Shown: piece by piece, positions 7,227 through 63,209 of the stretch | Layout of the letters: every line of letters begins with the position of its first letter | How positions within the stretch are numbered: the stretch's first letter is position 1 | Assembly: GCA_905233245.1 (NCBI GenBank) | Contig: CAJODK010000012.1 | Coordinates: forward strand, 16,359-80,358 | DNA length: 64,000 nucleotides | Origin: an uncultured Prevotella sp. | GTDB taxonomy: Bacteria; Bacteroidota; Bacteroidia; Bacteroidales; Bacteroidaceae | Direction of reading: 5' to 3' | Made by a program: the position numbers and the translations under genes | Notes under the pieces: generated by a model | Databases searched by the model: none | Told to the model about the DNA's origin: nothing | What the model saw: only the letters and a program-made list of their open reading frames with translations

Positions 7227-7265
7227 ATATTTAGAAGTCATCTTCGAACTCGGCATCTTGATCTA
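7227..7265 (-). pseudogene. Relic of an acidic C-terminal tail, (RQI)DQDAEFEDDF*, out of frame with the upstream ORF
   Basis: Minus strand gatcaagatgccgagttcgaagatgacttctaa; no start codon, preceded by an in-frame stop. Confidence 0.55.
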
Positions 7266-7886
7266 TTTGTCTCTAATTTTATCTCTAGCCTTAATTGCAT
7301 TATTCTCACTGCCATTATTAGCGCAGTTGTTCAGGCTTTCTTGTGATTTTATAGCATTCACAATTGAATCCAACTTGGTTCCAATCTCCTGTAGAGGAGT
7401 TTTTAGGTCTTGGGGCGATTGAGATACTCTGTTACTCATAAAGCACGACAGTAATAATACTAAAAACAAGATAATTGGATAAAACATCACAATAGATTTC
7501 GATTTTAAGCAATGTTTCTTTATGGAACAACTGTTATTTCCTTTTGGTATTGATATATCGAATCTGTAGATCAGATCTTTCCACGTATTATCACCATTAT
7601 GATACCTTGTAATAAACTCTTTCTCATGCTTGCGAAACTTGTTCTCGAGTAACAGATAATAGAAGTCTAATGCCCAAAACATGCAGATAGGGATAACAGC
7701 AATCAAAAGATATTCATTTAACTCAACTGAAGCAGCACACAGTGCAATTAGAGCCGTAACAATAGTTAATGTCCAATTTTTACAATTTGAACTGTTGGAT
7801 GCCATTCTGTTTATGGTATCCTGAAGCATCTGCAGATACTGACGAACATCCGTCACTTCATATATTTCTTTTTGTTGCTCACTCAT
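7263..7886 (-). CDS. Membrane protein with TM hairpin plus a third TM; partner of the TIR gene
   Basis: Hydrophobic segments LTIVTALIALCAASVELNEYLLIAVIPICMFWALDFYYLLL and SIVMFYPIILFLVLLLSCFM; starts 4 bp after the TIR gene stop. Confidence 0.7.
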   Translation of the reverse strand: MSEQQKEIYEVTDVRQYLQMLQDTINRMASNSSNCKNWTLTIVTALIALCAASVELNEYLLIAVIPICMFWALDFYYLLLENKFRKHEKEFITRYHNGDNTWKDLIYRFDISIPKGNNSCSIKKHCLKSKSIVMFYPIILFLVLLLSCFMSNRVSQSPQDLKTPLQEIGTKLDSIVNAIKSQESLNNCANNGSENNAIKARDKIRDK

Positions 7887-7890
7887 AAAT

Positions 7891-9039
7891 TTATACTATT
7901 GGTAAGTTATTATCCACTTGACAATATTCACAATCCTTTAGGTATTCTGGTACTTCTAATGTTATAACACCTGGCTTGTAAACTACAACTTTTTTATTAT
8001 GCTCTTTGAAATAATTTACTTCACGCTCAGTATATTGTGAAAGAATAGCATTATCAGTCATCACATAAAGTAATACGTCCGATTGGTCCATACGTAGTTC
8101 CAGTGCAGGCCAAGTATCTTCGTTTTGATTTTTTCGATTCAACATTACACCGTCATTAACCCAATCAATATAAACCACCTTGCCAAGACTATTCAAGTGT
8201 CTTTTAATATTAAGGAGTTCCTTCGCATCAAGAGAACTGTGGGAAAGGAACACATCAAATCTCTGATAGAGCAACTCTTGATTATCATACAGCAGATGAA
8301 GAAGTTCCGTAGGATTTTTCTTAATATCAATTGGCTTTAGCGCAGATTTCTTTCTTTTGCCCTTCCTTTCTCTTGCCAACCAAGGGCGTTCGCCCATGCG
8401 CAATAAAGATTTATAGGCTACCACGCGAAGGTCATAATTCTTGTCACAAGCATTAACTTTTTCCAAGAATGCAACGGTTTCCCTACATTTAAATTGTGCC
8501 GCCTCTATCAAAATAAGGTAACGAGCATTAATGTTGAGCGTATCACGTTTGCGCACATCAAAATAGGTTTTTACCAAAGCATTTATATATGGAGGACAGA
8601 CATCCTGTACATGAACAAGATTTTCTGCATTTTTTTTGCTACGTTCATTCATCTTCCTTGTAGCGTTATTCTTGAGTTCATGCTTGAACGTATTTATTTC
8701 TTCATCTGACAGTGTACGTTTATTCACGCGTTTAATTTTTGCATTTCGCTCCAGGAATTTTTCTGGAGTTGAAAAGGACACTGTTCTAAGATTTTTCTTC
8801 TTTCTTCGTATATAATCGTTCTTACGACTATTGCAATAATAACAGATATCCTCCCATGTGTAAGGGAAATATTCTTTAAATGCTTCAAGGTAATCCTGAA
8901 AGCTAAATCCAACAGGAAGAATATTCACAAGTTTTTTGGATAAGATTGCGAGATGAAACCCTTTTAGTACAATTTTCTCTCTATAATATTGCCTTCGATA
9001 GTAAATTGACATTATATTATTGTTTAAGGAGTTACTCAA
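7891..9039 (-). CDS. TIR-domain protein with N-terminal alpha-helical extension
   Basis: C-terminal RFDVFLSHSSLDAKELLNIKRHLNSLGKVVYIDWVND...DVLLYVMTDNAILSQYTEREVNYFKEHNKKVVVYKPG is TIR-like. Confidence 0.8.
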   Translation of the reverse strand: MSNSLNNNIMSIYYRRQYYREKIVLKGFHLAILSKKLVNILPVGFSFQDYLEAFKEYFPYTWEDICYYCNSRKNDYIRRKKKNLRTVSFSTPEKFLERNAKIKRVNKRTLSDEEINTFKHELKNNATRKMNERSKKNAENLVHVQDVCPPYINALVKTYFDVRKRDTLNINARYLILIEAAQFKCRETVAFLEKVNACDKNYDLRVVAYKSLLRMGERPWLARERKGKRKKSALKPIDIKKNPTELLHLLYDNQELLYQRFDVFLSHSSLDAKELLNIKRHLNSLGKVVYIDWVNDGVMLNRKNQNEDTWPALELRMDQSDVLLYVMTDNAILSQYTEREVNYFKEHNKKVVVYKPGVITLEVPEYLKDCEYCQVDNNLPIV

Positions 9040-9130: not shown

Positions 9131-9301
9131 TTACTCGAAGTCCCCTTCGAAGTCGTCCTCAAACTCTGCATCCATGGAGAGAGTTCCACCTGGTGTTGGT
9201 GTAGTTGATGGTGTCTCATTCATGCCCATTGATGTACACACCATGTTTGTAAGCTTAATTTCTACAGCCTTAACAGAAGGCTCGATATATTCTTTTTTCA
9301 T
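9131..9301 (-). CDS. Small 56-aa acidic-tail peptide: MKKEYIEPSVKAVEIKLTNMVCTSMGMNETPSTTPTPGGTLSMDAEFEDDFEGDFE (absent from ORF track)
   Basis: Own translation; 42 bp downstream and co-oriented with the 9344-11140 secreted gene; shares MKxxY..P and AEFEDDFE with 53234-53383. Confidence 0.75.
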   Translation of the reverse strand: MKKEYIEPSVKAVEIKLTNMVCTSMGMNETPSTTPTPGGTLSMDAEFEDDFEGDFE

Positions 9302-9343: not shown

Positions 9344-11140
9344 TTATTTTACCTGCTGACCAACAACGTTGAAGTTGCCAATGAAGAGCTGACCGTTCTT
9401 GATTACCTTAACTGGAGCCACTGCCTCAGCCTTAGTCTCAGCCACAGCCTCTACTGCTGTAGCATCAGCAAACTCTGCTGGGAGAGCGTCAGTGCCACCT
9501 GCTGCAACCTGAACGTACGCCTTGTGAGCAGGGATACATTTGTAAGTATTATTTGTTACCTTAGTAAAGCCAACGTTATCACCATCCTTAAAGAGTACGT
9601 AGTAGCTATCTGTCTCTTTTTCTATCACATTGCTATCGCTATCTGTGCCAGATATAGAAGAAGTGGCAGTACCAGCCTCGGTAGTCTCAGAGAAGGTATA
9701 TGAACCAGCTGTACCCTGAAGAACAACACCCGTGTTAGCAGGGATGATGCCATCAGTAATCTCCGTCATTGTAACTGCTGTGCCAGCAGCATTCAGTGCT
9801 CCTGTATAAGCCGTCACACCACTAGGTATCTCAACTGCATAAGGCAGAGCAAGTGTTGCATAGCCTGCGCTTCCGATAGACATGGTGTAAGAGTTTTCGT
9901 TGCCATAAACAACCTTGAAGCCATAGATACCCATATCGCTATCACCTGTATTTGAGATATTTACCTTGGTAAGACCTGTTCCTGTAATAGCATAATATAC
10001 AGCATCCAGATAACCGCCCATATTGTAGCCAATCTTCTCAATATCAACATTCTTATTGTAATCAACGCCAGTAGAAACGCCAAAACCACGGAGAGAGTTG
10101 TTACTGTTACTCGTCACATACACGACAATGTTACATGGAGCGTTTACAATAAAGGAGAAATAACGGGTATCATTTCTTGAACCACCTCCAAACTGAAGAC
10201 GTTTGGTGAAAGATATACCATCTACGCTAGCACTTGATTCAGGAAAATTAACTGAACCTACATACACACCATCTTTGGTACTACTTGCTGCCCAGCCGTT
10301 CTCACTGAAATTAAATGTAGAGGTTGTTGCGATGCAGTACTTTGCACTGAATGAAGTTACGTCAGAGTCAGTCATGCCACTCTTTACAGCATAAGCCTTA
10401 ACGGTGCAGTCTGCTGTTATTACAGGTTTGTTGGTAGCGTCATATACGTTACTTGTTGTGCTTGGAGCAGTGCCATCAGTGGTGTAATAGATAGTAGCAC
10501 CATCTGCAGCAGTCATAGTGATAGTGTTCTCACTCTGAGAAATCTCTGGAGCATCCAGAACAGAAGCATCTGCGCGAGTAACGACAATGGTCAGGATGTT
10601 AGTACGAGTAGCACTCTCCAACCCCATCTGACGTCCAAAGAATAAAGAGTCTGCGTCTGCAGTCAGAGTGTACTCTGTTGCTTCTGGGGTGCCTGCAGTT
10701 CTTTTGCCATCAGTAGCAGTCCAATCGGCGAGTTTATTTGGGGATGCAGGGGTTTCTGTATTGAAAGTGTACAGACTAATAACTCCCACCTTAGTTTCAT
10801 CACTGTTATTGATATAACTACTAATAGAAATCTTGTCACCAGTCTTGAAGCCACCTTCAATCTCAAGTTTGAGACAGTTGTTAATGTACTGATTTGGCTC
10901 ATCACCTGCAACAGCCAAACTGTTTGGACACGTGATTGTACCATTAGGTGTGGTACCACCGTTGTTGTACTTCTGACCTTTGTAGTTTTTTTGCACGGTT
11001 CCACGGATTGTAGCAACAACACCCTTAGCTGTGTTGATATTCTCTGTTCCGTCAACATAGGAATAGAGGACAACATCTGTTGCCTTTGCTCCGATGACTA
11101 TCGTCATCAAGAGCGCGAAAATAGATAAAATCTTTTTCAT
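9344..11140 (-). CDS. Secreted protein with chitobiase/beta-hexosaminidase C-terminal-like domain and Prevotella-type C-terminal tail
   Basis: Signal peptide; APEISQSENTITMTAADGATIYYTTDGTAPSTTSNVYDATNKPV; tail AEFADATAVEAVAETKAEA...VIKNGQLFIGNFNVVGQQVK. Confidence 0.75.
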   Translation of the reverse strand: MKKILSIFALLMTIVIGAKATDVVLYSYVDGTENINTAKGVVATIRGTVQKNYKGQKYNNGGTTPNGTITCPNSLAVAGDEPNQYINNCLKLEIEGGFKTGDKISISSYINNSDETKVGVISLYTFNTETPASPNKLADWTATDGKRTAGTPEATEYTLTADADSLFFGRQMGLESATRTNILTIVVTRADASVLDAPEISQSENTITMTAADGATIYYTTDGTAPSTTSNVYDATNKPVITADCTVKAYAVKSGMTDSDVTSFSAKYCIATTSTFNFSENGWAASSTKDGVYVGSVNFPESSASVDGISFTKRLQFGGGSRNDTRYFSFIVNAPCNIVVYVTSNSNNSLRGFGVSTGVDYNKNVDIEKIGYNMGGYLDAVYYAITGTGLTKVNISNTGDSDMGIYGFKVVYGNENSYTMSIGSAGYATLALPYAVEIPSGVTAYTGALNAAGTAVTMTEITDGIIPANTGVVLQGTAGSYTFSETTEAGTATSSISGTDSDSNVIEKETDSYYVLFKDGDNVGFTKVTNNTYKCIPAHKAYVQVAAGGTDALPAEFADATAVEAVAETKAEAVAPVKVIKNGQLFIGNFNVVGQQVK

Positions 11141-52679: not shown

Positions 52680-53070
52680 AATGTTTAGTTGTTTGGTCGT
52701 TCGGTTGTTTAGTTGTTTGGTGCAAAGGTACAAATAAATCCTAAACTCACCAAATATTCCGAGATTTTAACATTTCGATACAGGGGCACAGAGCAAGGGA
52801 TTTCCCTTGCTAAGCAATAGACTTCTATTACTAAGCAACAAGCGCCCCTTGCTTAGAGGGGGTAGAAACCTGTGCCGAGATTTTAACTTTGTGATTTTGT
52901 TGCTTTGTGATTTTGTGTTTTTTTCGTACTCATTCATGAAAAACACTGCGGTGGTTAGCCCGAGCGGCTGGAGGCGCAAAGCCTCCAAAGAGCGTTATAC
53001 TGTCTTTGACTTTATAAAAGAAGAGAGAGGGGATAATATAATAATTTATTATTATATAGGGGTAAATAAT

Positions 53071-53114
53071 AATTATATATTAATTATATATTAATTATAT
53101 ATTAATTATATATT
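53071..53114. repeat. Perfect 11-bp tandem repeat (AATTATATATT)x4
   Basis: Direct reading; followed by alternating tatatacgcgtacgcgcg. Confidence 0.95.
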
Positions 53115-53178
53115 ATATATACGCGTACGCGCGAGGGGGAAATCACAAAATCACATTATCACAAAAATCACAAATGCC

Positions 53179-53233: not shown

Positions 53234-53383
53234 CTACTGCTTTTCCTTCTCGAAGTCGTCCTCGAACTCTGCATGGAATGAGTCACCAGGAATATTCTCT
53301 CCCTTGGATACAGTATCAAGGAGATGTTGACGTATTACAACAGTCTGAATTTCTGGAACTTGATAATTTTTCATTTCTTTCAT
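53234..53383 (-). CDS. Small 49-aa acidic-tail peptide: MKEMKNYQVPEIQTVVIRQHLLDTVSKGENIPGDSFHAEFEDDFEKEKQ (absent from ORF track)
   Basis: Own translation; starts 5 bp after the 53389 gene stop; shares Y..P and AEFEDDFE with 9131-9301. Confidence 0.75.
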   Translation of the reverse strand: MKEMKNYQVPEIQTVVIRQHLLDTVSKGENIPGDSFHAEFEDDFEKEKQ

Positions 53384-53388
53384 AATTT

Positions 53389-56300
53389 TCAATATTTTAC
53401 TATGTATTTTTTACCTTTCTTGATGAACATACCCGTCTTTGCAGTACCATTGACACGCTGTCCTGCAATATTGTAGATAGCATCACTGGTATGCTGGTCC
53501 TTGCTCTGTTTGACCGCCTCAATAGCTGTTGGATAGTCTATACCCTCATCAATCAAAATTACATTGATAGAATTCTGAGTTTGGGTTATAGTAGAAGAAT
53601 ACTCACTATTATTTGTGATCTGCATATACCACCTGTATGGATTTACGTTGGTAGAGCCTGACGTCATGTGACTTATCTTGCCACCTCCCATATACCAGTA
53701 GTCATTTGTTGCATTTGCCTCCAACGTTGTGTACGTACCAGTGAATGTGTAGGTTTTGGCTGTGGTGGAACATGACATAGAACCATTCGCAGCAGCGTAA
53801 ATCTTGTTATCTACAGCTGACATCGTAATAGCACCAGCAGATTTTACCCTTATCAAATATGGTTTGTTAGGTATAGTGTTACCTGTTGTCTTCTTGAAGA
53901 GCACCAAATAATCTTCATCATCAGCAGTAATCTCACCATCATTGTTGGTATCCATCACTGGACACATAGCGAATATCTCTGCAATGTCACACTGGTCAGC
54001 ATAAGCAGTTACATCTACTGCAAACGGAACATAGAATGAAGTCCACTTATTGACAAGACCTGAGCCATATGTTCTGGTATATGTCACACCATCATCATAT
54101 ATCTTCTCTTCAGTGCCTGTATACTCAGCGCCATCTATCAGTTCGAGGTCATCAGCGTCAACGGTATTCTGAGTCCAAACAGCCTGGAAGTTTGTGGCTG
54201 AGGTAATAGCGTAGGTAGCGACAATGACTACATTAGTACCATTGACTGACCAACCCTCAAAGGTGTAGCCCTCACGCTCTGGGTCAGCAGGTGCAGTAGC
54301 ATATGAGCCACTCTCGATGCTCTGAGTAGAGCCTACCTGAGTACCCTGGCTGTAGAACTTGACATCATACTCGTCAGCCTCAACTGCATTAGGCACGTAC
54401 TTTGTACCGTCAGCATTGTAGGTGGTGTATGAGCTGTTAGCAACTGCATTGTTGAACTCAGTGATGTCCTCTGCAGGGATGGTCGTAGTGTAGCTATCCC
54501 ACAGCACTACCTTGCCTGCTCCTGAATACTGTTCGCAGACGTCAGGAACATTCAGCACTGGGTCAATGTTGTGCACTACATAACTGCTCCAGGTCTGAGT
54601 AGGAACCCATGTGTTAGAGTTAGTACCAGTGCCACCAGCCCATGTATATTCCTCGTCATACTTGGATGGAGCATTGAGGTATGTGAAGTAGGTAGAGTTG
54701 TTGATGACACGCCTACAGTTGTCATAGACGATGCTGTACTCCTTGCTGTCAGTACGTATGTTGGTAGTACCCTCACCACGCAGACGGACCGGAGCCTTTG
54801 AGTCCTTGAAGTAGCATGACTCAATATATCCTATAGCACCTGCACGCAGGTCGTAACCATCCTCAGCATTGACGATGTAGTTGTTCACATAGTGCAGATG
54901 ACCATAACGCTGCAGTGGCAGACGAGAACCTACAATATCCTTAAACTTATTGTGGTGCATCGTGATGGTACGGTCATAGTTGTCACTGTTACCCTTACCA
55001 AAGAGGCAAGCCTTGTAGTGGTCATGGAAGTAGTTGTACGAGAGGGTTACCCACTGTACGTTATTCTTTATATCTACAAGACCATCGTAGCGGTCCACAT
55101 TGGTAGCATTGCCATTGAAGAACTCACAGTGGTCAATCCAGATGTGTGAACCAGAGTCGGTAGAAGCAGAGATGGCATCAGCCTGTATGCCTATACAGTC
55201 TGGGTCGCCCACCTCTGTCTGCACACCGTCACGCATAGCCACAATCTTGTTCTCGCCACTCTTCAGGATTGGCACACTGTTCATGGTGAAACGGCAGTTG
55301 CGTATGATGACGTTGTGAGCACACTGCAGATTGAATGTAATACGTGAAATCAGCGGAGCATTGCCATTGGCATCAGCGATACCGATGAGAGTCTTATTGC
55401 TCTGTACCATGATGCGCTCACCATAAGTGGTAGCAACACCCTCACTGCCATCTTGAGCATCGCAGAGATGACCTGTAGAGAGGGCATCCACGTATGCTGT
55501 CACACCAGTAGTGATGTCGTGGTCTATGAGGATGATGTATGGGGTGTTAGACTGGAGATAGCCCTGAAGCTGTGTGAAGTTGCTTGCATATACCACCTCA
55601 CCGCCCTGACCGCCAGTAGTACCACCAGCATGGTAGTGAGCACCTGATGTGCCTTCGTATTTAGCGAAGCCGTCGATAGTCCAGTTTCTGCCTGAAGTAT
55701 CACTCTGCTTGGTGAAGTTAGCCGTCAGAGAGAGGTTGCCTGTTACCGTAGTGGTGTAGGAGGCATCCGTGCTGACAGGAGTACCGCCGTCAGTCCAGTT
55801 GGTGAAGGCATAACCAGAAGCTGGTGTAGCGGTGAACGTCACTGAAGCCCCAGATACTACGGTACCAGAAGGCGATACAGTAGCAGAACCACCATTGCCT
55901 GCAGAAACTGCTACTGTGTAGGTAGTTACAACAGGCTGAGCTACGGTGTAGTTGATGGTATAGGTCTTCTGAGTGCCATCCTCAGCAGTAACGGTCACGG
56001 TAGTCGTAGCTGCATTGCCGCTGATAGTACCGTAAGATACGGCTGCTGTAGCCTTAGAGTCAGTGCATGTGGCAACTACAACAGGTACCGATGTAGTACC
56101 CTCAGCGAGCTCTATATCGTAAGATGTAGTGTTAGCAGAGAAACCACTTACCGTCGTGCCACCACTCTTCAGGTCAGACAGTGTGCAGACGCTGCTCTTA
56201 GGAGTGGATGAACCGCCTGATGTGCGAGTAACGGTCACCTTCTGCAGGTACATAGACTTTTCCGAATTTCTGTATAGATAGAATGTAGATAAACCACTCA

Positions 56301-58995
56301 GATTAGAGCCTACCGTAATAGTTCCTGAAGTAATACCCTTACCATCAGTGGAACCAACATATACTGTACCGTCAGCATGCGCTATATCTGCTGCAGAGCT
56401 TGCACTGATACCATATGTATTAGCAGCTGGATCACTTGTAGAATTCTGATATAGATAGATAGTTATAATGTCACCAGTCTGGAGAGTATTGCTGCCCGAA
56501 AGGACTGCTGTACCATATTTGCTTGTAGATTCCAACTTATAAGCAATCGGATTGCCTGATGCTCCCTTAGACTCAATCGTTCCCGATACAAGCGTCATTG
56601 TACCACCAGTACAGCTCTTGGCTGTTCCGTCAGCATCACCTAGTGCTACAGTGTAAGAGTATATCTCAGAAGCATCTCCTCCTCCACTGCTCTCAGCAAC
56701 GGTGAAGTTGATGGTGTAAGTCTTGTTTGAACCATCCTCTGCGGTAACCACAACGGTGGTAGAGCCTGGCAGTGCAGAAGCAGCATTGATGACTACACCC
56801 TGCGCCTTTGTGTCATTAGCAGTAGCTGTGACGGTAGGGACAACGGTGGTGCCTGATGCCAACTCAACATTGTATGTAGTGGTAGCAGCTGAGAAGCCTG
56901 TCACAGTAGTGCCACTGACCTTGAGGTCTGACAGTGTAGCGTCATCACTCTTGGTAGCAGCGGTCTGTTCTGGCACTGGTGTCACCTCAAAGTAGTAGAG
57001 GTGCGAATTGCCACTAAAGTCTATCGTAACTGTACTACCCTGAGCTACTTCGAGACCAGAGATTGTCACACGATACACAGTTGACTTATTCTCTATAGTT
57101 CCCTCTACGGTGTAAGCACTCTCATCAAGGGCTACGCCATTGACGCTGACACCTGTAACGGTGCGCTCTGAAGAACCAGATGAACAGGCACCAATAACAA
57201 TCTGTGAAGCAGAGGTGCTCAGCAACCCGAGAGTGATGGATGTAGCGTCAGAAGAACGATATACTGTACCAGAAGTAATGGACAACGGAGACTTGTCAGA
57301 ACCATCGCTGACCTCTGTACTACCTGCGAACTTAATGTTCGTAGTACATGTGCTTCCTGTAAAGGTGCCACCAGCAGATACGCTTGAGCCATTCGCCTCA
57401 AGCAGCGTAGCATCAGCAGCACGCGTCAGTGTGATGGTGTATGACTGCGTAGTAGTGCCATTCTTTGCGGTCACGGTGACTGTTCTACCTACTGTAGCAC
57501 CTGCCTCTGCAGCGAGATTCATAGTGAAACTTGTGCCTGCATCACACGTAGCACTGCTGGACAGCGTCAGTACAACAGGTATAGTAGTACCCGCAGTGTA
57601 AGGTATAGTAGCCTTAATGGTATTGCCACTTATAGTCGCTGTACTACCATTGATAGTAGCTGAGGTGATGTCACAAGCTGTGTTGGACACGAAATTGGCA
57701 CGCAGCGAGGTATCATCCGTAATCGTAGCTACGTATGGGTTAGCGGTACTCACCTGAGAGCCAGAGGTATTAGTCCAGTTGACAAACTCATAGCCTGCGG
57801 AAGGAGTAGCCGTGAAGGTCACACTCGTGCCAGACGTCACACTCGTAGCAGAGGCTGAAGCCACACCGCCAGTGGTAGATGATACTGATACTGTCTTAGT
57901 GTCAGAAGGAGTTGGAGTACTGCCACCACCCGAACCATCACCCTCGGTGATAGTACCACCTGTAGTAACATTCAGTGTAGCACCAGCACCATAGGTTGAA
58001 TTGGTGACATTAGAATATGCTACAGAAGGAGACAGTACTTCGTAAGCGTAAGAGAAGTTTGCTACGCTTGACGCATTTGTGTCAGACAACGAAGCACCCT
58101 TAGCGCTATAGCAGTTGTTATAAATGGCTGCATTAGTACCACCATAACTCTTGAAAATCTTGCTTGCATCGAGAGAGCCGAAGTAGCAGCCATCGAAACG
58201 AACACGAGCATTCTCAGGCCCTACGTAATAGTTTGCTACAGAGGAAGTCCATACGCAGTTGAGCATGTGGAGGTCTGCATTACGTACACGAGGCATACGC
58301 TCCCTACAGCCTTCATCCCACCAGCAGTAAGCCCATGTCATGGTGTAGGCACCATCAGAAGGTTTTGCCGAACTGGAAGAACCGATAAGGTTAGTGAAAC
58401 GGTGGTCATTACTACCACCTGAGCCGCCTGCCTTAGGAGCCTTGAGATAATGGAAACGACACCACGAGATGGTGATATTATCGGTGTTACCCTTATTATC
58501 GAAGTTACCATCGCAACCATCCTGGAAGTCGCAGTGGTCCACCCAGATGTTTGTTGCGCCATCAAAACAAAGGTTATCTCTACCATCACAGTCGTATGCA
58601 CCAGGACCTTCAAAGGTGAGGTTACGCATAATGACATTGTTAGAACCCGACTTAAAATAGAGTATGCCCGATGTAGAAGCTGTCTGCTCATTAGAATACA
58701 GTTTCACGCCAGGAAGAGCAAGGATAGTCTTATTTGTTACCTTGACACTGGTGTAAGGCATCTCTATGTTCTGGGTTATGATAATAACTGCAGAGCCACT
58801 GGCACTCAATGCGTTTGTTAAGGCTGATGCCGTAGAAACAAGCGTGGGTGTAGCATTACCACCGCCTGTAACGGTACCACACTGTCCGAAAGAACTTGCC
58901 TGATAGCCCTGTGCTCCTGCCATAGCAGAGACGGAATACATCGTCAGAGCTACAAGGCAGAAAAGGCTTGCTATATAATTTCTAAGTATAGTCAT
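53389..58995 (-). CDS. Very large secreted protein with two pectate lyase domains, repeat-like beta domains and T9SS-type tail
   Basis: N-terminal ...ILYFKSGSNNVIMRNLTFEGPGAYDCDGRDNLCFDGATNIWVDHCDF; second lyase region GSHIWIDHCEFFNGN...VDIKNNVQWVTLSYNYFHDHYKACLFG; tail AIYNIAGQRVNGTAKTGMFIKKGKKYIVKY. Confidence 0.87.
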   Translation of the reverse strand: MTILRNYIASLFCLVALTMYSVSAMAGAQGYQASSFGQCGTVTGGGNATPTLVSTASALTNALSASGSAVIIITQNIEMPYTSVKVTNKTILALPGVKLYSNEQTASTSGILYFKSGSNNVIMRNLTFEGPGAYDCDGRDNLCFDGATNIWVDHCDFQDGCDGNFDNKGNTDNITISWCRFHYLKAPKAGGSGGSNDHRFTNLIGSSSSAKPSDGAYTMTWAYCWWDEGCRERMPRVRNADLHMLNCVWTSSVANYYVGPENARVRFDGCYFGSLDASKIFKSYGGTNAAIYNNCYSAKGASLSDTNASSVANFSYAYEVLSPSVAYSNVTNSTYGAGATLNVTTGGTITEGDGSGGGSTPTPSDTKTVSVSSTTGGVASASATSVTSGTSVTFTATPSAGYEFVNWTNTSGSQVSTANPYVATITDDTSLRANFVSNTACDITSATINGSTATISGNTIKATIPYTAGTTIPVVLTLSSSATCDAGTSFTMNLAAEAGATVGRTVTVTAKNGTTTQSYTITLTRAADATLLEANGSSVSAGGTFTGSTCTTNIKFAGSTEVSDGSDKSPLSITSGTVYRSSDATSITLGLLSTSASQIVIGACSSGSSERTVTGVSVNGVALDESAYTVEGTIENKSTVYRVTISGLEVAQGSTVTIDFSGNSHLYYFEVTPVPEQTAATKSDDATLSDLKVSGTTVTGFSAATTTYNVELASGTTVVPTVTATANDTKAQGVVINAASALPGSTTVVVTAEDGSNKTYTINFTVAESSGGGDASEIYSYTVALGDADGTAKSCTGGTMTLVSGTIESKGASGNPIAYKLESTSKYGTAVLSGSNTLQTGDIITIYLYQNSTSDPAANTYGISASSAADIAHADGTVYVGSTDGKGITSGTITVGSNLSGLSTFYLYRNSEKSMYLQKVTVTRTSGGSSTPKSSVCTLSDLKSGGTTVSGFSANTTSYDIELAEGTTSVPVVVATCTDSKATAAVSYGTISGNAATTTVTVTAEDGTQKTYTINYTVAQPVVTTYTVAVSAGNGGSATVSPSGTVVSGASVTFTATPASGYAFTNWTDGGTPVSTDASYTTTVTGNLSLTANFTKQSDTSGRNWTIDGFAKYEGTSGAHYHAGGTTGGQGGEVVYASNFTQLQGYLQSNTPYIILIDHDITTGVTAYVDALSTGHLCDAQDGSEGVATTYGERIMVQSNKTLIGIADANGNAPLISRITFNLQCAHNVIIRNCRFTMNSVPILKSGENKIVAMRDGVQTEVGDPDCIGIQADAISASTDSGSHIWIDHCEFFNGNATNVDRYDGLVDIKNNVQWVTLSYNYFHDHYKACLFGKGNSDNYDRTITMHHNKFKDIVGSRLPLQRYGHLHYVNNYIVNAEDGYDLRAGAIGYIESCYFKDSKAPVRLRGEGTTNIRTDSKEYSIVYDNCRRVINNSTYFTYLNAPSKYDEEYTWAGGTGTNSNTWVPTQTWSSYVVHNIDPVLNVPDVCEQYSGAGKVVLWDSYTTTIPAEDITEFNNAVANSSYTTYNADGTKYVPNAVEADEYDVKFYSQGTQVGSTQSIESGSYATAPADPEREGYTFEGWSVNGTNVVIVATYAITSATNFQAVWTQNTVDADDLELIDGAEYTGTEEKIYDDGVTYTRTYGSGLVNKWTSFYVPFAVDVTAYADQCDIAEIFAMCPVMDTNNDGEITADDEDYLVLFKKTTGNTIPNKPYLIRVKSAGAITMSAVDNKIYAAANGSMSCSTTAKTYTFTGTYTTLEANATNDYWYMGGGKISHMTSGSTNVNPYRWYMQITNNSEYSSTITQTQNSINVILIDEGIDYPTAIEAVKQSKDQHTSDAIYNIAGQRVNGTAKTGMFIKKGKKYIVKY

Positions 58996-59009: not shown

Positions 59010-62000
59010 TTATTGGTTGATAATTACTTTTCTGTTCTTGATATAGAGTCCTGACTTGGTAACGCTATTAACACGCTGACCTGCAATATTGTAGATAGCG
59101 TCACTGGTCTGCTGACCCTTGCTCTGCTTTACAGCCTCAATAGCTGTTGGGTAGTCTATATCCTCATCAATCAAAATAACATTGATAGAATTCTGAGTCT
59201 GAGAAACTGTAGAATACTCATCTCTGTTAGTTGACACCATGTACCACCTATATGGGTTTACATGGGTAGAGCCTGACGTCATGTGACTAATCTTACCACC
59301 TCCCATGTACCAGTAACCATTGGTTGCATTTGCCTCCAGAGTTGTGTAAGTACCAATAAAGGTGTAGTTCTTAGCAGATGTAGAACATACCACGCTACCA
59401 TTAGCAGCAGCATATACCTTGTTATCTACAGCTGACATGCTTAAGTCGCCTACATTCTTAGGACGAATCATATAAGGCTTATTAGGTATAGTGTTACCTG
59501 TCGTCTTCTTAAAGAGCACCAGATAATCTTCATCATCAGCAGTAATCTCACCATCATTGTTGGTATCCATCACTGGACACATAGCGAATATCTCTGCAAT
59601 GTCACACTGGTCAGCATAAGCGGTAACATCTACTGCAAACGGAACATAGAATGAAGTCCACTTATTGACAAGACCTGAACTATACGTTCTTGTGTATGTC
59701 ACACCGTCATCATAGATTTTGTCTTCCGCACCTGTGTAATCTGTTCCATCAATTAGTGAAAGAGTAGATGCAGTTGACTCCTCACGAGTGATAGTGAAGT
59801 CAGTGAAGCAAACGGTCTTGGCTACGGAACGGTAGATGTAGAACGTGGTCTCGCCACAGATTCCATCACCCTCTGCAACAGTATAGGTAGGCAGTGATGT
59901 CCATACAGTAGCACCACCTTCTCCAGTAGCAGCAACCGTCATATTAGCTGTAGGAGCACTGCCAGGACGAGATGATGCAGTAGAGAACCACAGTCCCTGC
60001 TCTGCATCCGTTCTGGTGAATACTATACCATGTATCTGGTCACCTGCCTGGAGTGCTTTACTGAGAGTTACCTTGAAGAAGGTGTTGTTATTCGTCATAC
60101 AGAAGGCTACCTTACCATTATGGTCGATTATCAGGTCTTTAGCAGTGCTCTGAGCACTTGAGACATACATACTGCCACCTGTGATAGCAGCGTTGGCAGA
60201 GGTGATTTCCTGATTTGTAGTGCTGGCAGCAACCGTCATCACATTAGTAGCCACTGCAGAGAAGAAGGAAGAGGTCTCTGACTCTGAGGTATTCTCCTCG
60301 AATGTAGCAGTAAGAGCAAGGTCACCACTCACTGTGGTAGTGTATGGATTGACAGTAGAGTTGTTGCTCCACTTAGAGAACTTATAGCCTTCATTGGCAG
60401 TAGCGGTGAATGTTACGGATGTGCCCTCCTCCACTGAACCAGAAGGAGATACTGAAGCTGTACCACCTGCACCTGCTGATGCAGAAACAGTGTAGATAGT
60501 AGGAGCAACAGTGATATTGATGTAGTATTTGCCTGATGTGCCATCCTCAGCAGTAACGTCAATGATAGCCTGACCTGCCGGATGACAGTTCTCGGTATCT
60601 ACATCGTATGATGCATTGGGATGAGTGGTCGTAGCGGTGATGGCAGGAACAGTAGTAGAACCAGCTGTCAGCACAACTGCATAGGTAAGATTAGAAGAAG
60701 TGAACGCAGGGTCAAGAGAGTAACCTGCTACGGTGAGACTGCTCAGAGTAGCGTCGCTTGACAACTCTGGCTCTGGTTCTGGTTCTGACGCTACATCAGC
60801 AAAATCGAGGAAACACATCTTGATAGCACCGCTCTTGGTTAGTGTGTGGGTGCCTGCTGCAACATCCACTGAGGCGGTGTTGCCTGTACCAGCAACGGTA
60901 GTGCCATCTATCTTGAAGCTTGCAGTCTGAGTTCCGTCAGCCACAAAAGTCATTGTAAATGCCTTGGTAGTGGTGAAGGAGATGCTCGTGGAGGACTCCA
61001 TCTTGATGGCGAGCGAGCTGTTTGTCACAGTTTTGTAAGTTGCATTACAAGATGTGGAGGTGTTATAGGTACCAGTGAGATAGCCCTTATAAGCATTAGA
61101 GCCATCACCGATGTTAAGCGTCAATGCTGTTGATATAATAGAACCTTCTGGAGTTGGCTCCACGGGCTCTGCAGCTACAGAGAACTGAACCTGATAAATC
61201 TTCTTCGTAGTGCCATTCTCAGCAGTAACGGTCACTGTAGCCATACCCGTAGTAGATGTAGCCTGAGTGATAACGGCTGTGGCATTAGCATTATTGGTAG
61301 AAGCAGATACCGTAGGAGCTGTCTCTGTACCATAATTCAGAGTCACAGCATAGTAGGTAGTGCTAGATGAGAATGACAGAGAGTAACCTGCTACGGTGAG
61401 GCTCTTCAGTGTGGCATCATCAGAGGTTGTAGGCTCTGAGGGGTCTTCCTCTTCACCACCGTCAACAGCAGAGTCGGTGATAACACCATCCTTGAAATAC
61501 ATGGAGTTGGTGACAGGGGTATAGTAAGAAGTGCTCTTATATCCCTCAACATCGCTCTTGAGAGCTGATATAACGCCATAATTGGTATCGTCAGACTCAG
61601 AGAAGGTGTACTGGTATGTACCGTGCTGCAGACGACCTGCGCCGTAAATGCCCGTAACTTTATCAGGAACAGCAGAAGCATCATCAGCTGTGTAAGAGTA
61701 CATCCCAGAACCCGTATCAAAGTTGTTGTATGTAGAACCGCCCTGATAACCTGTCACTGAGCTTGGCACCGTCTGAGAAGGACTTGAAACCTCGTAAGCA
61801 TCGAAGTCCTGAGTACTATTGATATTACCCAATGACGTGCCTTCTGTACCCTTGAGCAGGTATGAGGAGGCACCATACTTGATGTAAGTATTGTTGCCCG
61901 TCATATAGTTGCCATAAGACTTGATGATACCACTATTCTCACCTGAGAATGTACCATTTGCATCTGGATTACGAGTCTGACTACCAGCATAGACGTCGGA

Positions 62001-63209
62001 ACCCTGCATAGAAGACATCATAGGGTACTTACAGCTACGGAAGTAGTTGCGGTCAACAAAACAACTGGCACCCATCGTGACACCAACACCATACTTTGCT
62101 ACACCATCGTAGTAGTTGTTATACACGTGAACGGACATGGTACGGATACGTGGGTGACGAGAGTCAGAGTGGTCAAACCAGTTGTGGTGGTAGGTGATGT
62201 AGTTAGGACCGCTCTCAGACTTCATACCGCAGAGAGAAGACTTACCTGAATCCCAGAAGTGGTTATAAGAAACGGTGATATACTGTGAGTCACCCTTGAG
62301 GTCAACGGTACCATCACCCTTAGCCTGGTCCTTGTCACCACCTGCATTACCATAAAAAAGGTCAAGGTTGTGAACCCATACATGGGAGTTATTCGTGTCA
62401 AGAGACACACCGTCATCCATACAGTGCATGATGGCAAAATTGCGCATCTCCAGGTCTGATGTATTACGGATAAGGAAACCGAAACCGTGGATAACGGCAT
62501 CGTTGCCTACACCCTCGAAGGTGATAGGACAACTAGCGTATGCTGAAGCACCCTTAATCTGGATACCCTCAGCGCTGGAACTGAATGCATCCATATCGTC
62601 GGCTGACAAAGTACCGAGCACACGAATGTCAAGAGGAGCAGTTGACCATCCCTTAGAATATGCCTTAGTCCAAGCATCGATGATAGTCTGCAGACCTGTA
62701 TAGATAGAGGTCTTGTTGGATGCAGAAGGCACGGTCATCGTGATGGTCTTGGCATTGCTCTTGGTGATATAAAGGATGTTAGTACCCGACTTCAGAGTAC
62801 CATTGTCATTGTAGGCACCAATCTGGTTGGCATGATTGAAATGAGCAAAGCCGCCACGGTCGTGAGCCTTTACAGTCAGAGCGTCTGAAACGGTAGAGGC
62901 TGTCTCAGTACCGTTGGCATTGACTGATGCCACCTTGATGTAATAAGTGCCAGCAGAGAGACCCAGCACGTCAGCACGGCCCTTGGAAGAGCTGTACTTA
63001 CGCACGAGCTGATCGTCAATCTTGGTCCAAGGACCAGAGGACGAGGTGCTGTAATAGACGTTGTAATAAGACGAGCCGTCAGGAGTAAACTCCACATAAG
63101 CCGACTCAAACCAGCCACCCTGAGCAGTAATGCTGACGGCTGCATTCGTAACTGTTGCCACCATGAGAAGGAGCAGTGTCACGAGTCCCACGAGGGAAAT
63201 TCTTTTCAT
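59010..63209 (-). CDS. Secreted pectate lyase with beta-sandwich repeats and T9SS-type tail
   Basis: NTSDLEMRNFAIMHCMDDGVSLDTNNSHVWVHNLDLFYGNAGGDKDQAKGDGTVDLKGDSQYITVSYNHFWDSGK; tail AIYNIAGQRVNSVTKSGLYIKNRKVIINQ. Confidence 0.87.
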   Translation of the reverse strand: MKRISLVGLVTLLLLMVATVTNAAVSITAQGGWFESAYVEFTPDGSSYYNVYYSTSSSGPWTKIDDQLVRKYSSSKGRADVLGLSAGTYYIKVASVNANGTETASTVSDALTVKAHDRGGFAHFNHANQIGAYNDNGTLKSGTNILYITKSNAKTITMTVPSASNKTSIYTGLQTIIDAWTKAYSKGWSTAPLDIRVLGTLSADDMDAFSSSAEGIQIKGASAYASCPITFEGVGNDAVIHGFGFLIRNTSDLEMRNFAIMHCMDDGVSLDTNNSHVWVHNLDLFYGNAGGDKDQAKGDGTVDLKGDSQYITVSYNHFWDSGKSSLCGMKSESGPNYITYHHNWFDHSDSRHPRIRTMSVHVYNNYYDGVAKYGVGVTMGASCFVDRNYFRSCKYPMMSSMQGSDVYAGSQTRNPDANGTFSGENSGIIKSYGNYMTGNNTYIKYGASSYLLKGTEGTSLGNINSTQDFDAYEVSSPSQTVPSSVTGYQGGSTYNNFDTGSGMYSYTADDASAVPDKVTGIYGAGRLQHGTYQYTFSESDDTNYGVISALKSDVEGYKSTSYYTPVTNSMYFKDGVITDSAVDGGEEEDPSEPTTSDDATLKSLTVAGYSLSFSSSTTYYAVTLNYGTETAPTVSASTNNANATAVITQATSTTGMATVTVTAENGTTKKIYQVQFSVAAEPVEPTPEGSIISTALTLNIGDGSNAYKGYLTGTYNTSTSCNATYKTVTNSSLAIKMESSTSISFTTTKAFTMTFVADGTQTASFKIDGTTVAGTGNTASVDVAAGTHTLTKSGAIKMCFLDFADVASEPEPEPELSSDATLSSLTVAGYSLDPAFTSSNLTYAVVLTAGSTTVPAITATTTHPNASYDVDTENCHPAGQAIIDVTAEDGTSGKYYINITVAPTIYTVSASAGAGGTASVSPSGSVEEGTSVTFTATANEGYKFSKWSNNSTVNPYTTTVSGDLALTATFEENTSESETSSFFSAVATNVMTVAASTTNQEITSANAAITGGSMYVSSAQSTAKDLIIDHNGKVAFCMTNNNTFFKVTLSKALQAGDQIHGIVFTRTDAEQGLWFSTASSRPGSAPTANMTVAATGEGGATVWTSLPTYTVAEGDGICGETTFYIYRSVAKTVCFTDFTITREESTASTLSLIDGTDYTGAEDKIYDDGVTYTRTYSSGLVNKWTSFYVPFAVDVTAYADQCDIAEIFAMCPVMDTNNDGEITADDEDYLVLFKKTTGNTIPNKPYMIRPKNVGDLSMSAVDNKVYAAANGSVVCSTSAKNYTFIGTYTTLEANATNGYWYMGGGKISHMTSGSTHVNPYRWYMVSTNRDEYSTVSQTQNSINVILIDEDIDYPTAIEAVKQSKGQQTSDAIYNIAGQRVNSVTKSGLYIKNRKVIINQ

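Follow-up and report, generated by a model that had tools for sequence, protein, structure and literature searches.

Acidic peptides encoded behind T9SS cargo genes of Prevotella as proposed precursors of an LPP-like RiPP pathway

Introduction

The 64,000-nucleotide stretch of DNA from an uncultured Prevotella sp. analysed here (the window) holds, 5 bp past the stop codon of a pectate lyase gene, a short gene for an acidic peptide. An earlier note on this DNA, made from its letters alone, had paired the gene with a second one in the window that also follows the gene of a secreted protein, and had offered as possible roles an export-coupled peptide, a chaperone or regulator, or a RiPP-like precursor. 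What these peptides are, and why they stand behind secreted proteins, is the question that this locus raises. Cargo of the type IX secretion system (T9SS) with short C-terminal signals (short CTDs) has been described in Prevotella intermedia (PMC11969387). The linear polyphosphorylated peptides (LPPs), a class of RiPPs described in May 2026 in Nat Commun and, according to that paper, confined to Bacillota, derive from precursors with the leader YxxPxVLxHQxIxFETxxS, in which the signal peptidase LppS (SpI) removes the leader after T-1 and the kinase LppK phosphorylates the core, which starts with AQS, at Ser3 (PMC13381572). PqqD-type RREs bind YxxP leaders in both lasso and LPP pathways.

Results

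The 49-residue product of the gene next to the lyase (Table 1) reads MKEMKNYQVPEIQTVVIRQHLLDTVSKGENIPGDSFHAEFEDDFEKEKQ in full and carries YxxP at residues 7-10 and Ser26 at the conserved position sixteen residues past the proline of that motif (P+16); the tripeptide TVS falls exactly at P+16 here, as does CTS in the sister peptide. The two peptides share the octapeptide AEFEDDFE, a match that the earlier note had reported and that the translations confirm as exact, and both genes do follow secreted-protein genes in the same orientation, with gaps of 5 bp and 42 bp (the latter behind the 598-aa protein). The sister was the top match to the family profile in its own genome (E 3e-19). The C-terminus of the 1868-aa lyase is a short T9SS-type signal, PT/AIEAV...IYNIAGQRV...GMFIKKGKKYIVKY (CTD profile E 1.6e-18; motifs as in PMC11969387). 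The product of the next gene upstream ends in a near-identical signal; no peptide gene stands behind it, and the next gene begins after 14 bp.

Table 1 Features of the peptide loci in the window. The leader/core boundary of the peptides was placed on the precedent of LPP.
Feature	Positions	Strand	Length (aa)	Remarks
Acidic peptide gene	53234..53383	-	49	Leader MKEMKNYQVPEIQTVVIRQHLLD; predicted core TVSKGENIPGDSFHAEFEDDFEKEKQ
Two-domain pectate lyase, upstream partner	53389..58995	-	1868	PF00544
Pectate lyase/CBM77 protein, next gene upstream of the 1868-aa lyase	59010..63209	-	1399	
Sister acidic peptide gene	9131..9301	-	56	Leader MKKEYIEPSVKAVEIKLTNMV; predicted core CTSMGMNETPSTTPTPGGTLSMDAEFEDDFEGDFE
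Secreted signal-peptide protein, upstream partner of the sister	9344..11140	-	598	Class-ii short C-terminal signal VKVIKNGQLFIGNFNVVGQQVK
Orphan tail fragment	7231..7272	-		RQIDQDAEFEDDF*, leaderless

The orphan tail fragment is, by its sequence, probably the remnant of a third family member. Between it and the sister peptide, at 7263-9039 on the minus strand, lie genes for a ThsB-like TIR protein (PADLOC E 3e-60) and then for a small membrane protein with a match to PDC-M50A of PADLOC (E 7e-28); these form a candidate defence pair, the position of which would fit the replacement of most of a third peptide gene. Elsewhere in the window, about 110 bp past the stop of the first peptide gene, an AT-rich tandem repeat occupies 53066-53121 (4.5 copies of the 11-bp unit ATATTAATTAT).

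In the 1.93-Mb source genome (G000, an 82%-complete MAG), a degenerate codon pattern for AEFEDDF gave seven matches, against none for the reversed control, and the copies differed mostly at synonymous codon positions. Selection thus acts on the protein and the conservation is not one of DNA; the same synonymous differences led us to reject the idea that 7232/9131 mark an attachment site or a repeat at the level of DNA. The contig profile search with the AEFEDDF alignment yielded no confirmed relatives, and Pfam and NCBIfam searches of the peptides matched no family. With the family profile, about 13 loci were retrieved in the source genome, and matches were obtained in 92 of 100 genomes of the genus (0-29 per genome). 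On the sequences compared, the AEFEDDF tail is mainly an own-genome, lineage-specific trait and not a functional signature, the part conserved across the genus being the N-terminal leader; the octapeptide pointed out earlier is not confined to two copies. That the peptides are spurious ORFs of 3' regions is scarcely credible: they are short and belong to no Pfam or NCBIfam family, as such a reading would have it, but the mostly synonymous codon variation of the tails, the matches in 92 of 100 genomes and the fixed spacing of the motifs contradict it.

The common leader is MKKxYIxPx(I/V)xVVxL...LL(A/C)xS, followed by a variable, mostly acidic tail. When 79 members were aligned on the proline of YxxP, the conserved positions were K-K-x-Y-(I)-x-P, V at P+4/P+5, L/I/V at P+7, hydrophobic residues at P+12 and P+13, A/C at P+14 and Ser at P+16 or P+17. 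The triplet [ACG]xS occurred at P+16/17 in 46 of these 79 peptides, compared with 2.2 expected and a maximum of 9 in 2000 shuffles, as counted on sequences gathered by a profile that itself contains the leader. The approximately 29 residues after the leader vary and are acidic, with a mean net charge of about -6.

The genome-wide scan, combined with a check of the upstream genes, revealed that placement is not random, in agreement with the gene order inferred earlier from two loci: 12 of the 13 peptide loci of the source genome lie directly downstream, on the same strand, of a gene with a short T9SS C-terminal signal. The chance of such pairing is about 4e-19 when 40 of 1700 genes are taken as signal-bearing (both numbers estimated). 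The single exception (C13:43971-44102; L106), a family member beginning MKNTRKKYYTQPYVEV..., is encoded directly behind rpsJ, not a secreted gene. Another copy, at C16:20559-20707 (L006, L020), is frameshifted behind an intact cargo gene, by assembly error or as a pseudogene. The last ~45 residues of the upstream products contain a PT/GI-like cleavage site, Y..xGxR, KGxY or GxN, and basic GKKxxxK ends, and fall into two signal classes, YNIAGQRV...GMFIKKGKKYIVK and VKVIKNGQLFIGNYTVAGARVK. They belong with the short CTDs, having a PT/GI-type cleavage site, motifs B, D and E and a length of 40-51 aa, and resemble the P. intermedia cargo in the site, in Y..xG.R, KGxY/GxN and GKKxxxK and in length (~40-51 aa); the main text of the P. 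intermedia paper makes no mention of small ORFs downstream of cargo (PMC11969387). The source genome has a T9SS, with SprA of full length.

Across five genomes with such signals, at least 48 of the 79 peptide matches were preceded, at a distance of 5-250 bp and in the same orientation, by a class-i signal; any other arrangement of a class-i signal relative to a peptide was found for 0 of 79 among the matches listed. The remainder, where read, mostly had class-ii or weaker signals upstream or adjoined fimbrillin-like lipoprotein genes. Among the matches listed, only about 30% of class-i signal genes had a peptide behind them. Other families of the order gave few peptide matches, mostly behind such signal genes, some of which had classic long signals. 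A second peptide subtype adjoins fimbrillin-like lipoprotein genes (L089, L094, L097-L103), also in the T9SS-negative genome G010. At another locus (L064, G322:C10:153447) the family leader is in frame with a lipoprotein-like ORF within a 370-codon open frame, a possible fusion or missing stop.

A PqqD protein (PF05402, over the cut-off) of ~90 aa is encoded in 82 of the 100 genomes of the genus, mostly in single copy and, in the loci read, mostly accompanied by genes for an HprK-like kinase and a signal-peptidase-like protease. The kinase gave sub-threshold matches to TIGR00679/TIGR04352 and the peptidase to TIGR02228; in five genomes, the P-loop KSGTGKST and GSPWSGKTPC are conserved in the former and G[YF]SMxP, HRI and GDGN in the latter. 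The module of the source genome, on contig C9, consists of kinase, peptidase and RRE, with the NTP transferase and the exporter not beside it; the nearest named relatives of its genes are from Prevotellaceae and Prevotella MAGs. A fuller array was found in genome G083 (L172), where genes for T9SS-signal cargo, a YxxP peptide (~4 bp after the cargo), an NTP transferase (NTP_transf_5, PF14907), an HprK-like kinase, SpI, PqqD and an ABC exporter (PF00664/PF00005) are contiguous and co-directional. An exporter lies beside the module in G055 as well. Precursor genes almost never show linkage to the module; in the genomes examined, L172 is the only place where a T9SS-associated peptide is linked to the full module.

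The leader is not confined to the T9SS-linked peptides. Radical-SAM/PqqD/HprK clusters of the genus have adjacent small ORFs with the same leader and Cys-containing cores (MKTEKMTYEKPTVQKVEFDFKTRIAASGC..., MEVKKKFEKPQMEVVKLKPAGMVCGSC...), and hhalign matched the leaders of the radical-SAM clusters to the T9SS-linked peptides over 28 columns (probability 94.9, P 4.4e-8). Such clusters, often with SpI and mostly with Cys-containing precursors, occur at L157, L158, L165-L167, L169, L170 and L174, and at L159-L161; at L165, T9SS-signal genes adjoin the radical-SAM cluster.

In a survey of 50 high-quality genomes of the genus, peptides were present in all 43 with PqqD (1-29 matches each), while the seven lacking it had 0, 0, 0, 0, 0, 0 and 1 matches (Fisher 4.4e-7, with no tree correction). 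The one match came from G032, a 97%-complete genome in which PqqD was not detected and whose relatives have 18-29. On the SprA tree, PqqD appears to have been lost three to four times independently, partly within one clade; three losses are concordant in presence/absence, one (G032) is undecided and none is discordant, too few for significance (sign test p 0.25). Nine low-completeness MAGs had peptides without detected PqqD, which may reflect their incompleteness. At the level of the order, PqqD is found in 64% of genomes, and the 7/7 association there lends weak support, since PqqD is so common as to make it uninformative. SprA, for its part, was found in 49 of the 50 high-quality genomes; the sole one lacking it, the complete genome G010, has no class-i CTD matches and keeps 7-8 peptides, some of them beside fimbrillin-like lipoproteins. 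No peptides were found in six high-quality genomes that have a T9SS and lack the RRE. Dependence of the peptides on the T9SS is thus rejected by G010: the presence of the peptides tracks the kinase/protease/PqqD module, not the T9SS. The pairing of secreted protein and acidic peptide proposed earlier is real and genus-wide and can be sharpened to short-CTD T9SS cargo, but a dependence on the secretion machinery is not supported, given G010 and the six RRE-negative genomes.

Discussion

We consider it likely that the peptides are dispersed, LPP-like RiPP precursors that would be matured in trans and are mostly encoded behind surface-protein genes. The shared leader, the co-occurrence with the RRE, the L172 array and the intact catalytic motifs favour a precursor, which was among the roles offered by the earlier note; a dependence on the secretion machinery found no support. 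We infer maturation in trans, phosphorylation, a cleavage site, export and a cargo-related role along the following lines. The N-terminal ~23 residues would serve as leader, and a free-standing PqqD-type RRE, whose gene lies at another place in the genome, would bind their YxxP. This RRE would hand the precursor to the HprK-like kinase for phosphorylation of the conserved Ser of (A/C/T)xS, and the SpI/S26 signal-peptidase-like protease would cut the leader off just before (A/C/T)xS or, alternatively, after the Ser, in keeping with the small-x-small rule of signal peptidases; the acidic, phosphorylated linear peptide would then be exported. Precursor genes stand mostly last behind T9SS cargo or beside fimbrillin-like lipoprotein genes, an arrangement that makes co-expression of each precursor with its surface protein probable. 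A bolder extension, possible but doubtful, is that one enzyme set serves many scattered precursors and that individual surface proteins exported by the T9SS, along with some pilins, each have a phosphorylated acidic companion that acts on, guards or reports the protein.

An unmodified cytoplasmic partner of T9SS cargo, such as a chaperone, a secretion pilot or a translational regulator dedicated to the secretion system, would agree with the strict order and strand of the genes across five genomes and the 12 of 13 pairings in the source genome, and tails that are acidic and probably disordered would be in keeping with a chaperone-like function. Such a partner is nevertheless unlikely, given the peptides kept by the SprA-negative G010, their absence from six SprA-positive genomes without PqqD, the many class-i CTD genes that have no peptide behind them and a leader held in common with radical-SAM cluster precursors. 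That common leader could be read as a sign of a RiPP precursor modified otherwise than by phosphorylation, through lasso cyclisation or radical-SAM crosslinks in trans, more so as YxxP is also a lasso leader motif and PqqD weakly matches lasso PqqD models. We think this quite improbable: the T9SS-linked cores mostly do without the Cys of radical-SAM precursors, inspection revealed no consistent lasso-core Gly1 plus Asp/Glu8-9, it is the kinase and SpI that are conserved as neighbours, and the loci read contain no lasso B2 or cyclase genes next to the module.

The AEFEDDF peptides of the source genome lie mostly behind class-ii cargo with near-identical ends, suggesting recent copies, and whole cargo-plus-peptide units might have been duplicated with the peptide as a passive passenger, the pairing then having no functional meaning. 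This is very improbable, for the leader is under protein-level constraint across many species and behind unrelated cargo, two signal classes as well as fimbrillin loci are involved, and co-loss with PqqD would be left unexplained.

The precursor reading would suggest substrates for the kinase/peptidase/RRE module, which is conserved, mostly single-copy and present in the majority of genomes of this major gut genus, and, if LPP-like, would extend the pathway from Bacillota to Bacteroidota; if true, it would tie a newly described peptide-modifying pathway to bacterial protein secretion through a gene order repeated across the genus. Our literature search, which covered openly accessible journal papers, found no paper describing small ORFs behind T9SS cargo, substrates of the module, or LPP in Bacteroidota.

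Among described systems, LPP is the only other one in which we found both this gene set and a YxxP...S leader. All five LPP genes (HprK-like kinase, archaeal-type signal peptidase, discrete RRE, NTP transferase and MsbA-like exporter) are present in L172, and every one of five closely read genomes has the first three; elsewhere in Prevotella, the core genes do not always have the exporter and the NTP transferase next to them. The peptides share with LPP precursors a YxxPx(V/I) leader, a conserved Ser ~15-16 residues past the Pro and variable tails, with cores starting AGS, AAS or CTS in place of AQS. They differ in lacking HQxIxFET, with YxxPx[VI] and Ser at P+16/17 retained, and in their host; they are also acidic and numerous, and their genes are dispersed and accompany T9SS cargo or fimbrillin loci. 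LPP clusters contain one to three precursors, whereas in the genomes examined the Prevotella precursors lie outside, save in L172; we therefore do not file them as LPPs, although we propose that they work like them. Phosphorylated lasso peptides of the paeninodin type likewise have an HprK-like kinase, a PqqD-type B1 protein and a [Y/W]xxP leader, but here the motif has Tyr, not Trp, the module has neither a cyclase nor a B2 protease next to it in the loci read, and a linear core is expected. The HPr-rel-A systems (NCBIfam TIGR04352/TIGR04353) also combine an HprK-related kinase with a PqqD-family peptide chaperone; the weak matches to them score below the curated thresholds, far below in the case of the kinase, and the module is thus not the same equivalog.

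In the source genome, the end of a sigma-70 factor gene coincides with the start of the HprK-like kinase gene (L152:10877-11941, contig C9), and a sigma gene also lies near the module in G008, G010 and G016.
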